Below, piece after piece: positions 38,681 through 57,645 of a stretch of DNA of 64,000 nt; the stretch's first letter is position 1; every line of letters begins with the position of its first letter. The notes beneath the pieces were generated by a model. That model worked only from the letters and a program-made list of their open reading frames with translations, ran no database searches and was not told the origin of the DNA. Location: positions 2,356,001 to 2,420,000 of the forward strand of contig NZ_HG992749.1 of the NCBI RefSeq assembly GCF_905175385.1, written 5' to 3'. Made by a program: the position numbers and the translations under genes. This DNA comes from Vibrio sp. B1FLJ16. GTDB taxonomy: Bacteria; Pseudomonadota; Gammaproteobacteria; Enterobacterales; Vibrionaceae.

Positions 38681-41600
38681 ATGTTCAAATTCTACAAAAA
38701 ACAGAAGTTTAAGCGCCTTCAAAGTACGCTGATGACTGCGTTTCTTGTCGTCAGTCTCACGCCTTTAACCATTACCGCAATTTTCTTCCTGCACGCTCAC
38801 AGCCAGGATCTGCAAGAACAGAGCACATCACACCTGCTTTCTGTGCGAGAGACTAAACAACAACAAATTGCTGATTACTTCGAAGCTCGGGAAACTGAAG
38901 TAATGGGCTTTGTACGCTCTGAATTAGCCTACGCCAGTGGCGGACGTTTTTACGGTCTGGTCAATGCATTTAACCGCTTAGGCAACGATATTGAGGAGTC
39001 TCGTGAAAATGCACAGCAACGCTATATTGAAGGCAGCGGCGACCAAATAAAAACATCAATTTTGCCGGAGTCTTCCAACTTTGTCGGTAGTGAACGTTAC
39101 CGGCTATTACACAAACGCTATCACTGGTCTTATACAGAACTGCTCAAACGCTCGGACTTCAGAGATATTTTGCTGGTCGATATCAACGGCAATGTGACCT
39201 ATTCGATCAAGAAAGACGACAATTACGGTACTAACCTCCTATCTGGCCGATATAAAGATTCAGCGCTGGGCAAAGCGTTTCAGCGTTTGTCTGAAGATGT
39301 AACTGAACGCCGTAAAGTGAATGAGGACTACACGCCTGTAATTGTCTCAGATTTTGAGCTGGAAAATGGTAAACAAGTCGCTTGGTTAGGAGCGCCGATC
39401 GTTCAGCAAGGCTACCTGCATAGCTATGCCATGTTCAGCTTGCCGAGTAATGGCATCACTAAACTGATTGCCGATCAGAACCGGGAATCCTCCATCGAAA
39501 CTTTGCTCGTCGGAAGCGATCATAAGCCCAGAACGATTAACACCAAACAAGATAATATCCAAAACAGCCTGGAGGTTATTGAGCAGGCACTTTCAGGAAA
39601 CAAGAGCGTAGGGACATATTCAAATGGATTAGGTGAAAAGATCATTGCCGCCTACTCGCCAATTAAAGCTCGTGGAATGAACTGGGCTCTGGTGGTTCAG
39701 CTACCAGAAAAAGAAGCCTTTTCTCGTATTCATCAGTTAGAAAAACTGTTCGTCATTGCGATGTTGACGGCATTTATTCTGGTGGTCATTGCCTCTCATT
39801 ACTTATCTAACTTCATCACTTCTCCGTTACTGAAATTAACCTGGGCTGCAGAGCGGGTATCTGCCGGTGATCTTGACGAAACAAGATTCAATACCGAACG
39901 TAAAGACGAAATTGGACGATTAGCTATTAGCTTTGAGCGTATGCAACGATCAATTCGTGAAAAAATCCAGACCATCAAGAAGCAAAACGAAGAGCTGGAA
40001 AGTAATATCCGCCTGATTCAGAAACAGAATGAGGAGCTGCAACTTGCCGATAAACTCAAAGATGAGTTTCTGGCAACGACCTCCCATGAGCTAAGAACAC
40101 CTTTACATGGCATGGTCGGTATTGCAGAGACTTTAATCTCCGGTGCGAATGGTGCCGTTCCTGCGAGCCAAAAGTACCAGCTTGATATCATTATTAAAAG
40201 TGGTCAGCGCTTGGCCAATCTTGTTGATGACTTGCTGGATTACCACAAAATGCGCTATGGCAGCATGGACATACAAAAATCCGCTGTCAGTCTGGCAAGC
40301 TCTACGCAACTGGTGCTTGAGCTATCGAGCCATCTGCTCGGCAATAAAACCATCCGCATAATTAACCAGGTGCCTAATGATCTAAAAGCGGTATCCGCAG
40401 ATCCACAACGGCTTGAGCAGGTTCTTTACAACCTGATCGGTAACGCAATCAAATACACTTCAGAGGGAAAAATTGTCATTTCTGCCAGTGTGGTTGACGA
40501 ATATGTCCGGGTTCAGGTCGTCGATACCGGTCAGGGTATCCCCGCAGAACACCTTGAACACATCTTCGAGCCCTTAATTCAGGCCGGACAAGATGAGACT
40601 CGCTACCGCCAGGGTGCTGGATTAGGCCTGTCTATCAGCCGCCAGTTAATTGAGCTGATGGGTGGTTCACTGTATGTCAGCAGTCAACCAATGGTAGGTA
40701 CCACCTTTAGTTTCACGCTTCCGCTGGCCAGTGAAGAAGAGGTCGTGGCCTCGAAGACTCTAGCTGCCCGTGGCCATTTCCAGATACCTGAAATCAACAT
40801 AAACAATACAGATGATCTGTCTTTGCCTGAAAACCCGGACGGCCCGCTTCTGTATGTAGCCGACGATGAGCCGGTAAACCTTCGCGTACTTGAAAGCTTT
40901 TTACGCCTGGAAGGCTACCGGGTCCGCACGGCTTCAGACGGGCCTGAAACACTGGAACTCATTGAACAGGAGAAACCAGAGCTTCTGCTACTTGATATTA
41001 TGATGCCGGGGATGAGTGGCTATCAGGTGTGTAGCGAATTGCGCCAGACCTATGACCATGCTGAACTGCCAATCATCATGCTGACCGCGCTGAGCCAGAC
41101 CGAAGATCGCGTCAGAGGGTTCGAAGCCGGAGCAAATGATTACCTATCCAAGCCGTTTAACAAACAAGAACTCGCGGCGCGAATTCAGGCACATTTAACC
41201 GCAAGCAAAGCGGAAATGCGCCATATCGAAAACAAGTTACTCGAATCTGAACTTCGTCAACGAGCACAAGTAGAAGCAAGCCTGCTCGAAACTCAGGGCC
41301 GCCTGCTCGAACAACTGGAGTCAGCACCTGAAGCCATAATCTGCTTACGCGAAGACCAGCGAATCCGATTTGCCAACGAAGCCGCATGCAAGCTATTCAA
41401 GCGCAGTTTAGAGCAAATAAAACGCTCTTCTGCCGATGAACTGATTGCGCCTAAATATCTGACTGTCAAGCAGCCACATTACTGCGGAAAAATTGATATT
41501 TACATTGAGGATATTCGTCAGAATATTGAAGCGGATATTCTTAAGTTACCTGAAGGATCCGGTCTGGACGTTATGTACATCTTTAATGTCGGCGGTGGCG

Positions 41601-42067
41601 CGAACACCGCTCGTATACATAACCTGGAAACTGCGGTAGAAGTTCTTTCAAGTTACGCATTCGACGGTGACCGAGATCAGCTGCAGAAACTGAAAGAACT
41701 GGGGGGCGAGTTCACTCGTTTAGCAGACAAAGCACTAGGCAACAAAAAAGACAAGCAGGATCTGATGCGCGAGGTGTTGGTAGATGTAATGACGCACGCT
41801 CTTGAATACTGGGAGTCCGCAACCGGAGAAAGTAAGTTTGCCTTTGCTGAACAAAGTGGCCTGTGGCGGGTGTACCTTGACCGGAGCACCCTACAAACAC
41901 GTACTTTAGATAAGTACATGAGAATCGAGACATTGCCTAAAACACCGCGCTGGAGAACGGTTCTGAGTTCAATCGAATACATTCTCGAACATTGCAAAGA
42001 GCAAAGCCCGGAACGCGCTTATATTGAAGCTCAGCGCGACAAGTTACAAAGGTTGCTAACCAGCTAA
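38681..42067 (+). CDS. chiS: ChiS, membrane-bound hybrid kinase and DNA-binding regulator of chitin use
   Basis: 1128 aa. Order: cytosolic N-tip, TM1 (about 20-38), periplasmic sensor (40-350), TM2 (355-375), HAMP (376-430), coiled coil, HisKA with H469 in TTSHELRTPLHG, HATPase (LIGNAIKYTSEG, DTGQGIP, GAGLGLSISR), receiver with D772 in LLLDIMMPG, and a C-terminal region (about 845-1128). H469 and D772 have the numbering used for V. cholerae ChiS. There the C-terminus carries a cryptic DNA-binding domain, and ChiS acts as a one-component activator of the chitobiose operon from the membrane, restrained by the binding protein CBP. The adjacent CBP operon supports the same role. There is no good Shine-Dalgarno; a GGCAGC/GCTGCC hairpin lies just upstream. 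Confidence 0.96.
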   Translation: MFKFYKKQKFKRLQSTLMTAFLVVSLTPLTITAIFFLHAHSQDLQEQSTSHLLSVRETKQQQIADYFEARETEVMGFVRSELAYASGGRFYGLVNAFNRLGNDIEESRENAQQRYIEGSGDQIKTSILPESSNFVGSERYRLLHKRYHWSYTELLKRSDFRDILLVDINGNVTYSIKKDDNYGTNLLSGRYKDSALGKAFQRLSEDVTERRKVNEDYTPVIVSDFELENGKQVAWLGAPIVQQGYLHSYAMFSLPSNGITKLIADQNRESSIETLLVGSDHKPRTINTKQDNIQNSLEVIEQALSGNKSVGTYSNGLGEKIIAAYSPIKARGMNWALVVQLPEKEAFSRIHQLEKLFVIAMLTAFILVVIASHYLSNFITSPLLKLTWAAERVSAGDLDETRFNTERKDEIGRLAISFERMQRSIREKIQTIKKQNEELESNIRLIQKQNEELQLADKLKDEFLATTSHELRTPLHGMVGIAETLISGANGAVPASQKYQLDIIIKSGQRLANLVDDLLDYHKMRYGSMDIQKSAVSLASSTQLVLELSSHLLGNKTIRIINQVPNDLKAVSADPQRLEQVLYNLIGNAIKYTSEGKIVISASVVDEYVRVQVVDTGQGIPAEHLEHIFEPLIQAGQDETRYRQGAGLGLSISRQLIELMGGSLYVSSQPMVGTTFSFTLPLASEEEVVASKTLAARGHFQIPEININNTDDLSLPENPDGPLLYVADDEPVNLRVLESFLRLEGYRVRTASDGPETLELIEQEKPELLLLDIMMPGMSGYQVCSELRQTYDHAELPIIMLTALSQTEDRVRGFEAGANDYLSKPFNKQELAARIQAHLTASKAEMRHIENKLLESELRQRAQVEASLLETQGRLLEQLESAPEAIICLREDQRIRFANEAACKLFKRSLEQIKRSSADELIAPKYLTVKQPHYCGKIDIYIEDIRQNIEADILKLPEGSGLDVMYIFNVGGGANTARIHNLETAVEVLSSYAFDGDRDQLQKLKELGGEFTRLADKALGNKKDKQDLMREVLVDVMTHALEYWESATGESKFAFAEQSGLWRVYLDRSTLQTRTLDKYMRIETLPKTPRWRTVLSSIEYILEHCKEQSPERAYIEAQRDKLQRLLTS

Positions 42068-42175: not shown

Positions 42176-42811
42176 AGCAATACAAAGAAAATAATTTTCC
42201 TTTGCCACTCTAATCGCCTTTGGCTCCATCTTCCTCAGAATCAAGAACCACTAACCCCGTAGCTTTTCTTGTTAATACTTACTCGTCTTGTGTGCCAGAG
42301 TTTCAATGCACTATTCAAAGATAAGTCAGTCGCAAAGAAACAACCTTTGAAACTTCGGTCATCATTTCACTTGCGAAAGCGCAAACCGACACTTCATTCT
42401 CATCATAAAAAAAGGATGTCAAAGAGTAATAAACTAGTGATGAAAACCTGAGCCAATTCACTAAGCAACAGTAAGTTGACAAACAATTGACACAGATTGC
42501 GAACTCAATCACAACAGAACGGCAGATTAAATTTCATCTGAAGAATTAACATACTTTACTCGTGTGAGCCAGATCGCCGAACCACACAACGCCATAAAAC
42601 CCCTCTACGAACGAGGCATAAATGGTTAGCAACTACTAACCCATAAATTTCATAAGGACACACTCTGCGACACATATCAACATTAACTTTTCTAACAAAA
42701 CTGCCTTAAAAGCAGACAAAATGACGTTTATAACGTAGAGAAAGGTCTTTTTAACGTTTTTGACGGGATGCGAGTTTGATTATTTTATGGATAAGGTGTT
42801 TTCTTAGTCCT
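42176..42811 (+). promoter_or_regulatory. Regulatory region of the chitobiose operon
   Basis: No convincing gene. The promoter is TTGACG (42760-42765), 17-bp spacer, TTTTAT (42783-42788). Upstream lie a perfect dyad ACGTT-TAT-AACGT (42724-42736), the shared TTTTTAACG (42748-42756) abutting the -35, and a second dyad GGTTAG-N6-CTAACC (42624-42641). In V. cholerae the orthologous promoter is activated by ChiS binding upstream; these dyads are candidate sites, which I cannot confirm. The 42176-42560 part is AT-rich without structure I can interpret. Confidence 0.6.
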
Positions 42812-42891
42812 GCCAAAGGCCTACAGGCCACTCTTAGCGTGAGGTTATGCGAATAGCATAAGTTGCGAAAAACTAAGAGGTAGGTCTTGGC
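42812..42891 (+). promoter_or_regulatory. Nested stem-loop leader RNA of the chitobiose operon
   Basis: About 17 nt after the predicted transcription start, 42812-42824 pairs with 42880-42891 (12 bp, one G-U, one bulged A); inside it CTCTTAG (42831-42837) pairs with CTAAGAG (42873-42879), abutting the outer helix so the two can stack; inside that TTATGC (42845-42850) pairs with GCATAA (42856-42861) over a GAATA loop. Single-stranded joints CGTGAGG and GTTGCGAAAAA face each other. GGCC-TACA-GGCC (42818-42829) offers a competing hairpin that breaks the outer helix. The layout resembles a riboswitch aptamer, but I do not recognise the family. Confidence 0.55.
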
Positions 42892-42957
42892 GAGTGTTTA
42901 TCAATTGATGACATTCAATTCCATTTAGTGAAATGAAGCAAACAGTAAGGAACAGCT

Positions 42958-44640
42958 ATGCTTGCCAATATTAAAAAAACAGCACTAGCAACAGCAATTA
43001 TTGCTACCGCTACTACAGGTTTTGCATCGGTAGCTACTGCGGCTGAACGCAGTGAACTGACTATCCACCCTAAAGAGTTTACGACTTTTGTTCGTAACTT
43101 TAACCCTTTCTTGGGTGCTACTAACCTGCACACAACAACCGACTTTATCTACGAGCCGCTTGTTGTTTTCAACGAAATGCACGGTAACACACCTGTATTT
43201 CGTCTAGCAGAAAACTTCCAAATGGCTGACGACCTGATGAGCGTAACTTTCGACATTCGTAAAGGCGTGAAATGGTCTGACGGTCAAGCGTTTACTGCTG
43301 ACGATGTTGTTTACTCTTTCAACCTGGTAAAAGAGAAGCCTGAACTAGACCAATCAGGTATCAACTCTTGGGTTACTGGCGTAGAGAAAGTTAACAACTA
43401 CCAAGTTAAGTTCCGCTTAGCCGAAGCAAACTCAAACGTTCCTTACGAAATTGCTAAAGTACCGGTTGTACCTAAGCACGTATGGAGCAAAGTGAAAGAC
43501 CCATCAACATTTACTAACGAAAACCCTGTAGGTTCAGGTCCTTTCACAGTAATCGACACTTTCACTCCTCAACTTTACATCCAATGTCAAAACCCGAATT
43601 ACTGGGATGCTGACAACCTGGACGTTGACTGTCTGCGAGTTCCTCAAATCGCGAACAACGACCAGTTCCTGGGTAAAGTTGTAAACGGCGAGATGGACTG
43701 GACGTCTTCATTCGTACCTGACATTGACCGTACGTACGCAGCTGCGAGCCCTAACCACCACTACTGGTACCCGCCAGCAGGTACTCAGGCGTTCGTAGTG
43801 AACTTCAAAAACCCGGATGCAGCGAAAAACGAAGCTCTAACTAACGTAGACTTCCGTCGCGCGTTCTCTATGGCTCTTGACCGTCAAACTATCATCGACA
43901 TCGCTTTCTACGGTGGCGGCACGGTGAATGACTTCGCATCAGGTCTAGGTTACGCATTTGAAGCTTGGTCTGACGAAGCAACACACAACAAGTACAAAGG
44001 TTTCAACACGTACAACGTTGAAGGTGCTAAAGACCTTCTAGCTAAAGCGGGCTTTAAAGACGTGAACAAAGACGGTTTTGTTGACACTCCATCAGGTAAG
44101 TCTTTTGAGCTTCTGATTCAGTCTCCAAACGGTTGGACAGACTTTAACAACACAGTACAACTTGCAGTTGAGCAGCTAGCTGAAGTTGGTATCAAAGCAC
44201 GTGCTCGTACACCAGATTTCTCGGTATACAACCAAGCAATGCTAGAAGGTACTTACGACGTAGCGTACACCAACTACTTCCACGGTGCAGATCCACACTT
44301 GTACTGGGACAGCGCTTACAACTCGAAGCTACAGTCTGGTGACGGTATGCCTCGTTTCGCAATGCACTTCTACAAAAATGACCAGCTAGACAAACTACTT
44401 AACAGCTTCTACAAGACAGCTGATAAGCAAGAACAGCTAGCAATCGCTCATGGTATTCAGAAGATCATCGCAGCAGACCAAGTAACCATCCCAGTGCTGT
44501 CTGGTGCTTACATGTACCAATACAACACAACTCGATTCACTGGTTGGTGGAACGAAGAAAATCCTAAGGGTCGTCCAAACATTTGGGCTGGCATCCCTGA
44601 GCGTCTACTACACGTACTGGACCTAAAACCAGTTAAATAA
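42958..44640 (+). CDS. cbp: Chitin-oligosaccharide periplasmic binding protein CBP (SBP family 5)
   Basis: 560 aa. Signal peptide of about 29 residues ending ATAA before ERSELTIHP. OppA/DppA-type fold: family 5 region with GVKWSDGQAFTADDVVYSFN and VGSGPFTV. Binds (GlcNAc)n in the periplasm and feeds the ABC importer; in V. cholerae it also holds ChiS inactive until ligand binds. AAGGA precedes the ATG; the leader is about 160 nt. Codon use is strongly biased, fitting high expression. Corresponds to VC0620. Confidence 0.95.
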   Translation: MLANIKKTALATAIIATATTGFASVATAAERSELTIHPKEFTTFVRNFNPFLGATNLHTTTDFIYEPLVVFNEMHGNTPVFRLAENFQMADDLMSVTFDIRKGVKWSDGQAFTADDVVYSFNLVKEKPELDQSGINSWVTGVEKVNNYQVKFRLAEANSNVPYEIAKVPVVPKHVWSKVKDPSTFTNENPVGSGPFTVIDTFTPQLYIQCQNPNYWDADNLDVDCLRVPQIANNDQFLGKVVNGEMDWTSSFVPDIDRTYAAASPNHHYWYPPAGTQAFVVNFKNPDAAKNEALTNVDFRRAFSMALDRQTIIDIAFYGGGTVNDFASGLGYAFEAWSDEATHNKYKGFNTYNVEGAKDLLAKAGFKDVNKDGFVDTPSGKSFELLIQSPNGWTDFNNTVQLAVEQLAEVGIKARARTPDFSVYNQAMLEGTYDVAYTNYFHGADPHLYWDSAYNSKLQSGDGMPRFAMHFYKNDQLDKLLNSFYKTADKQEQLAIAHGIQKIIAADQVTIPVLSGAYMYQYNTTRFTGWWNEENPKGRPNIWAGIPERLLHVLDLKPVK

Positions 44641-44657
44641 GTAGAAGTTCATTTCTA

Positions 44658-44737
44658 GCGGCATGCATTCCGTATGCCGCCTATAAAATCCCCTCATAAC
44701 GGAACCAATATATGGCGCACGTCGTCAGGGGATTTTT
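44658..44737 (+). other. Two intercistronic stem-loops after cbp
   Basis: GCGGCAT (44658-44664) / ATGCCGC (44674-44680), then ATCCCCT (44688-44694) / AGGGGAT (44727-44733) with TTTTCGC after. The first lacks a T-tract and resembles mRNA-protecting hairpins after binding-protein genes; the second is a partial terminator. Together they would lower permease relative to CBP expression. Confidence 0.6.
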
Positions 44738-44810
44738 CGCTCTAAATTTCGCTAGGGGCGACCTGGAACCAGAAACAGAGAAAAATATCTGGGTGAGTAA
44801 GGTGTGAGTT

Positions 44811-57618: not shown

Positions 57619-57645
57619 GCCCGGCATCACCGCCGGGCCTTTTTC
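57619..57645 (+). terminator. Terminator of the chitobiose operon
   Basis: GCCCGGC-ATCACC-GCCGGGC followed by CTTTTTCC, about 80 bases past the last stop. Confidence 0.85.

Follow-up and report, generated by a model that had tools for sequence, protein, structure and literature searches.

The window, by which we mean the whole 64-kb stretch of Vibrio DNA that was analysed, carries chiS, with hybrid-kinase domains (38681-42067), and cbp. On the 3' side of cbp lie ABC transporter genes and genes for GH9, a GlcNAc kinase, GH20, GH94 and a phosphomutase, and the run from cbp to the phosphomutase gene is entirely on the + strand. This run of chitobiose genes extends to 57539 and is followed by a terminator-like hairpin at 57619; from cbp on, the genes probably form one operon of ~14.6 kb, a reading in which we presume the general organization of the V. 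cholerae chb operon. In the gap between cbp and the permease gene (44637-44810), we observed several hairpins, including GCGGC...GCCGC and a long terminator-like stem AAAAUCCCC...GGGGAUUUUU; hairpins in this gap are present in most of the 12 Vibrio loci inspected, and Rfam returned no match for the gap up to E 1. As a model of how marine vibrios use chitin, the chb operon has been studied intensively, and those papers on its control that we found centre on the promoter. The features between the SlmA-like palindrome and cbp are collected in Table 1, where P1 is our name for the outer helix, the bulge and the inner (middle) helix taken together.

Table 1. Features of the cbp upstream region and leader (window coordinates)
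Feature	Position	Strand	Remark
SlmA-binding-site-like palindrome GTTAGCAACTACTAAC, GTTAGN6CTAAC	42625-42640	+	-187 to -172 from G42812
Two boxes TGACGTTTATAACG, TTTAACGTTTTTGACGGG, probable ChiS sites	42722-42767	+	conserved by eye
Predicted promoter of induced transcript: TTGATT (42776-42781), 17-nt spacer, TTTTCT (42799-42804)	42776-42804	+	weak -10
Predicted transcription start (range)	42806-42812	+	from promoter spacing plus the 167 bp between SlmA site and start (PMC5519180)
P1 outer helix, 5' arm GCCAAaGGCCTAC, GCCAA(a)GGCCTAC	42812-42824	+	
P1 bulge AGGCCA, putative conserved recognition core	42825-42830	+	79/81 Vibrio/Aliivibrio leaders
P1 inner (middle) helix, 5' arm CTCTTAG	42831-42837	+	7 bp
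P1 apical hairpin TTATGC (42845-42850)/GCATAA (42856-42861)	42845-42861	+	6 bp; species-variable
P1 inner (middle) helix, 3' arm CTAAGAG	42873-42879	+	7 bp
P1 outer helix, 3' arm GTAGGTCTTGGC	42880-42891	+	
P2 hairpin GAGTGTTTATCAATTGATGACATTC	42892-42916	+	predicted in most leader folds printed (by eye)
P3: AAGCA (42936-42940) pairs TGCTT (42959-42963, cbp codons 1-3)	42936-42963	+	
Ribosome-binding site TAAGGA, in P3 loop	42946-42951	+	
cbp	42958-44640	+	SBP_bac_5, chitin-oligosaccharide-binding protein; first gene of probable operon

The elements upstream of P1 keep nearly fixed distances from its bulge. In 77 of 106 leaders, the start of a palindrome like that of the window (at most 3 substitutions) lies 197-200 nt ahead of the bulge, and none was found in 21; we call it SlmA-like on the basis of the general SlmA consensus and of the SlmA-site distance in PMC5519180. 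Measured from the bulge, the second box is at -71/-72 in 102 of the 106, the -10 element at -25/-26 in 87, and the -35 element at -48/-49 in 77. Both promoter elements (TTGA..-17-TTTC.T) were found in 74 of the 106 leaders examined, and in 67 of these 74 the spacer is 17 nt. The two boxes are probably ChiS sites; two ChiS sites are located inside a 60-bp Pchb probe (PMC8092284). By 5' RACE, V. cholerae chb yields two transcripts, a short one that is induced and a long basal one, and its SlmA site is 167 bp from the induced start (PMC5519180). Taken together with this distance, the near-fixed spacing of the promoter and the SlmA-like palindrome places the predicted +1 at about 42806-42812, 0-6 nt before the P1 stem, so that P1 would form the 5' end of the mRNA. 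An earlier note on this DNA, made from its letters alone, had the transcript begin about 17 nt upstream of the helices; the promoter spacing instead predicts a start at the hairpin base, and not downstream of 42812, where the note had said that a start would argue against its RNA.

The note had described three nested helices with asymmetric joints between 42812 and 42891 and had read them as a riboswitch-like RNA. All three helices are present at these coordinates, which confirms the observation; the interpretation is partly supported. The outer helix consists of 12 pairs, one of which is G-U, plus one bulged A, and the bulge AGGCCA is one-sided: it separates the outer from the middle helix in the 5' strand alone, with no unpaired nucleotide in the opposite strand. 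The segment 42808-42896 folds at -34.1 kcal/mol compared to -22.4 +/- 3.5 kcal/mol for shuffled sequences (z = -3.35; 2 of 200 shuffles at least this stable), and for the longer segment 42800-42957 the z-score is -3.19 (0 of 200 shuffles at least as stable).

Within the genus, a DNA match to 42740-42960 was identified in 160 of 196 genomes. Our Vibrio leader set (n = 81) consists of the window and 80 named loci, of which 79 are from Vibrio or vibrio-like genomes and one is from Aliivibrio fischeri. The two leaders of this set without the AGGCCA bulge are that of A. fischeri, which has AGACCA instead, and L093. The interior between the CTC and GAG arms ranges from 5 nt (L086) to 57 nt (L099, L107). 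We aligned 65 of the 75 distinct Vibrio/Aliivibrio cores using MAFFT, with no fitting to the structure and with L093 and L097 excluded beforehand. In this alignment, 90.2% of the cells are paired compared to 85.3% in shuffled alignments, 52 cells show a double change compared to 27.0, and on each of the five measures 0 of 500 shuffles came up to the observed value, a significance that can be inflated by kinship among the rows. When the structure was slid along the alignment, 33-60% of the cells were paired; at slide -1, the number of pairs with a double change (9) equalled the observed count, with only 40.6% of the cells paired.

Across the family, we detected P1 in 121 of 138 Vibrionaceae cbp leaders, the search criteria being the bulge pattern and both bulge-flanking pairs. 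The 17 leaders without P1 comprise 6 classed as paralogues, 5 from the genus g10, 3 from one Vibrio subclade, 1 from g12, and L093 and L094. Four of the 6 leaders in the paralogue class have a P1-bearing copy in the same genome (L230/L235, L233/L219, L234/L223 and L265/L252), and the other two, L259 and L260, are presumed paralogues. The remaining 11 leaders, including all five of g10, were taken as orthologues without a detected P1; among them, L094 retains the bulge region CUACAGGCCACUC and fell below the helix threshold. The context of the ribosome-binding site is changed in the P1-less Vibrio subclade (L215, L216, L220), and less so in the g10 loci (L213, L214, L218, L236, L237).

The 121 leaders with P1 reduce to 63 distinct cores, 34 from Vibrio/Aliivibrio and 29 from other genera. 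The bulge reads AGGCCA in 39 of these, AAGGCCA in 13, ACGGCCA in 8, and AGACCA, ACGACCA and ACUGGCCA in 1 each; because the bulge pattern and the two flanking pairs were the criteria by which the cores were found, the constancy outside Vibrio is partly imposed. The bulge is retained in L097, L223, L224 and L245 despite replaced flanking pairs, and in two of these it is unchanged although many helix letters differ: the architecture of L223 is GGGCUUGU-AGGCCA-UUUCUC...GAGAAA-ACAAGCUC, and that of L224 is GUCCAC-AGGCCA-UCUG...CAGA-GUGGAU.

The covariance model R1, built on Vibrio, is weak on other genera: with a cutoff of E 1 it matches 173 of 296 genomes, which represent 5 of 13 genera, and g3 and g6 match only at E near 0.4. 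A second MAFFT alignment of 31 rows, again not fitted to the structure, comprised 28 of the 29 distinct other-genus cores (L239, with its 8-nt bulge, was left out), L258, and the Vibrio cores L097 and L098. In these 31 rows, 29 of them from other genera, 94.3% of the cells are paired compared to 80.2% after shuffling, 64 cells show a double change compared to 17.7, and the covariation score is 0.596 compared to 0.309; 0 of 500 shuffles matched any of these measures, and sliding the structure left 33-45% of the cells paired. Both this and the 65-row alignment are free of structure fitting, although their rows had been selected because they contain the motif. Mapped onto a quickly built cbp tree, the second outer pair has switched between A-U and G-C at least 6 times, without a visible intermediate, and the first inner pair has gone between C-G and U-A at least twice. 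At least 9 changes in the state of the bulge were counted on this tree, most of them in length.

As the earlier note had required of its RNA, the helices occur in relatives, with covarying pairs, among both the 65 Vibrio/Aliivibrio rows and the 31 rows from mostly other genera. On this comparative evidence, P1 is a strongly covarying leader RNA common to most of the Vibrionaceae, in which compensatory changes maintain the helices whereas the bulge is maintained in its letters; the order is outer helix, 6-7-nt 5' bulge A(A/C)GRCCA, and inner helix, the last closing a segment of variable length.

The mismatches indicate which molecule is under selection. In the unfitted Vibrio alignment, G-U occurs 50 times (23 of them at one pair) and A-C 4 times. 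In the 567 cells of the 63 cores, there are 55 G-U, 5 A-C and 10 other mismatches, an excess of G-U that is partly imposed because G-U was counted as paired in the search. Because G-U is far commoner than A-C, we infer that the selected molecule is the + strand RNA. P1 lies within 80 bp of the promoter at a near-fixed spacing, as would an element acting in DNA, such as an operator or a cruciform downstream of the promoter; with G-U tolerated and A-C hardly so, and with arms that covary across an interior of 5-57 nt, such an element is very improbable.

Scanned with the models under loose filters, each of 13 genomes checked (the window's own and 12 of the 16 genomes with two or more R1 matches) has one copy of P1, just upstream of cbp; the other hits either were antisense to the P1 site itself or had E above 0.1. 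A pattern scan of the genome with at most 2 mismatches gave 41 places (21 + 20) compared to 76 (28 + 48) for the reversed control. The comparison with Rfam, likewise suggested by the earlier note, found no counterpart to the leader RNA: in Rfam 15, no match overlapped 42812-42957 at the gathering score or up to E 5. Searches with the model R3 in an order sample of 148 genomes that included some Vibrio and in a class sample of 274 genomes produced no credible P1 outside the Vibrionaceae, and these searches are insensitive, given that R3 failed to recover the window and picked up P1 in just a single Vibrio genome. At E up to 0.01, there was one non-Vibrionaceae hit per sample (L282 and L283 between them), and we took both as chance, L282 being located inside a 192-codon open frame and L283 having no cbp-like frame among those printed for one strand. 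Among the open-licence papers that our searches listed, none describes P1 in its title or opening abstract.

The earlier note had further proposed that the outer helix competes with a GGCC-TACA-GGCC hairpin, yielding two exclusive states. That hairpin can indeed be drawn in the window, but it does not stand as a conserved two-state mechanism. It is possible in 28 of the 63 distinct cores and is nearly confined to Vibrio/Aliivibrio (26 of 34 cores, vs. 2 of 29 in other genera); because so few of the other-genus cores allow it, though they keep the bulge, we rejected a conserved GGCC switch; within Vibrio, such a switch may still operate. Two further pairings, with the ribosome-binding site, were set aside as well. 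Duplex energies lend no support to a P1 interior that hides this site, being no better than those of shuffled interiors (mean z, with negative values stronger, of 0.0 in the window, +0.8 in 73 Vibrio leaders and -0.6 in 22 leaders of the genus g8). A possible pairing of the P1 3' arm (CCUUA) with the ribosome-binding site was noted by eye; in other genera, the arm changes and the site is constant.

As a conserved, structured RNA with covariation, P1 has, so far as alignments can tell, what is expected of the aptamer of a riboswitch. A metabolite riboswitch, in which the bulge would bind GlcNAc-6-P, GlcN-6-P, GlcNAc-1-P or chitobiose, would account for the near-invariant unpaired core and for the single copy ahead of relevant genes, and the rival hairpin is available to most Vibrio/Aliivibrio cores. 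Nonetheless, we consider a riboswitch unlikely: the core is very small, no terminator-like site was found on the + strand of the window's leader, the pairing between the interior and the ribosome-binding site does not exceed the control, and the rival hairpin is nearly missing from the other genera.

Downstream of P1, the sequence of P2 is unlike between genera (by eye), and the interval from P2 to P3 is an A-rich stretch. Both strands of P3 are present in 94 of 105 distinct leaders, and codon 2 of cbp is CTT in 80 of 81 leaders, a near-invariance that the P3 pairing would explain. In a few genomes of g8 (L246, L255, L256), P2 is followed by a U-run, with the look of an intrinsic terminator; in the window, there is no U-run after P1 or P2.

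The HK022 put RNA and the LoaP leader hairpin are hairpins at the 5' end of long transcripts, and P1, from its predicted position, would be like them in this. If P1 and P2 were a nascent antitermination RNA of this type, they would load onto RNA polymerase and permit read-through of the ~14.6-kb probable operon. The two tandem 5' hairpins (a weak criterion), the terminator-like hairpin between cbp and the permease gene, and the single copy per genome are in keeping with such a role, but the sequence of P2 is not conserved between genera, and we regard antitermination by P1 and P2 as improbable.

A precedent for a leader RNA with a different mode of action is Vsr217, which, like P1, is a conserved leader RNA of a Vibrio sugar-uptake gene: it is controlled by the sugar regulator and stabilises the mRNA in cis, and its deletion destabilises the malK mRNA in cis (PMC8265627). 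Vsr217 doubles as an sRNA that ends in a U-rich motif, whereas in the window none follows P1 or P2. The precedent bears on our leading reading, given below, and on two alternatives. P1 could be the target or the source of an sRNA, pairing via AGGCCA or via the CCUCC apical loop of many Vibrio leaders, as Vsr217 arises from the malK leader. Yet a bulge within a strong stem would make a poor seed and would have no need of fixed flanking pairs, the CCUCC loop is missing in the window and in several clades, and no U-rich end follows P1 or P2 in the window, which together make an sRNA role quite improbable. Alternatively, P1 could be a plain stabiliser, a terminal stem that shields the mRNA from 5'-end-dependent decay with the bulge unbound. 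The predicted start 0-6 nt ahead of the stem agrees with this, as does the malK 5' UTR (PMC8265627); however, a stabiliser leaves unexplained why the bulge is nearly constant letter for letter while the letters of the stem change. We regard this alternative as distinctly unlikely.

A paper from 2017 describes a "putative hairpin" in Pchb that had some inhibitory effect, and its authors speculate on control through the 5' UTR (PMC5519180). That hairpin is in the same promoter region as P1 and may or may not be the same element; in the available text of the paper, it is given without a structure, conservation, a bulge or a mechanism. The earlier note had taken an RNA layer of chb control to be new to its knowledge; such a layer had already been hinted at in print. 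P1 may be relevant to the inhibitory hairpin, for which the promoter-truncation data of that study offer no explanation (PMC5519180).

Our leading reading, which we hold with slightly less than even confidence, is that P1 is a cis-acting, 5'-terminal hairpin of the chb leader whose bulge docks a trans-acting factor that affects the lifetime or elongation of the mRNA. Once transcription has initiated, the ~80 nt at the start of the ChiS/SlmA-induced chb mRNA would fold into P1 and thereby seal its 5' end. Flanked by a helix on either side, the bulge would serve as the docking site for the trans factor, most likely an RNA-binding protein, and the sealed end and the bound bulge together would set the lifetime or elongation of the long chb transcript. 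A protein that reads a hairpin with a lateral bulge in amino-sugar control is known in RapZ, which recognizes GlmZ (PMC9841335), although GlmZ is an sRNA and not an mRNA leader. Against this reading, the bulge has changed state at least 9 times on the tree, 11 presumed orthologous leaders are without a detected P1, and some inhibitory activity of a hairpin in Pchb (PMC5519180), which may or may not be P1, does not agree with a pure stabiliser. More broadly, it is possible, and we put it forward tentatively, that P1 is the founder of a Vibrionaceae leader-RNA family in which a protein or a metabolite reads A(A/C)GRCCA, as a checkpoint after initiation on the ChiS/SlmA-controlled operon, possibly enabling RNA polymerase to traverse all of its ~14.6 kb. 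That most of the family conserves a recognition core so firmly points to a second control of chb, after initiation, and P1 offers a short, testable handle for finding its partner.

The apical part of P1 varies between groups. In many Vibrio leaders (L040, L043, L045, L049, L058, L100 and others), the apical loop is UCCUCC or CCCUCC and resembles the anti-Shine-Dalgarno end of 16S rRNA; the CCUCC loop is missing in the window, in the V. splendidus group and in several clades. In g8, the apical loop is often CG(U/C)UUACUC or similar (L221, L224, L238, L240-L244, L247, L249, L255) and is complementary to GAGUAAGG at the ribosome-binding site, UUACUC facing GAGUAA, a weak hint of pairing for which the mean z is only -0.6 compared to shuffles.
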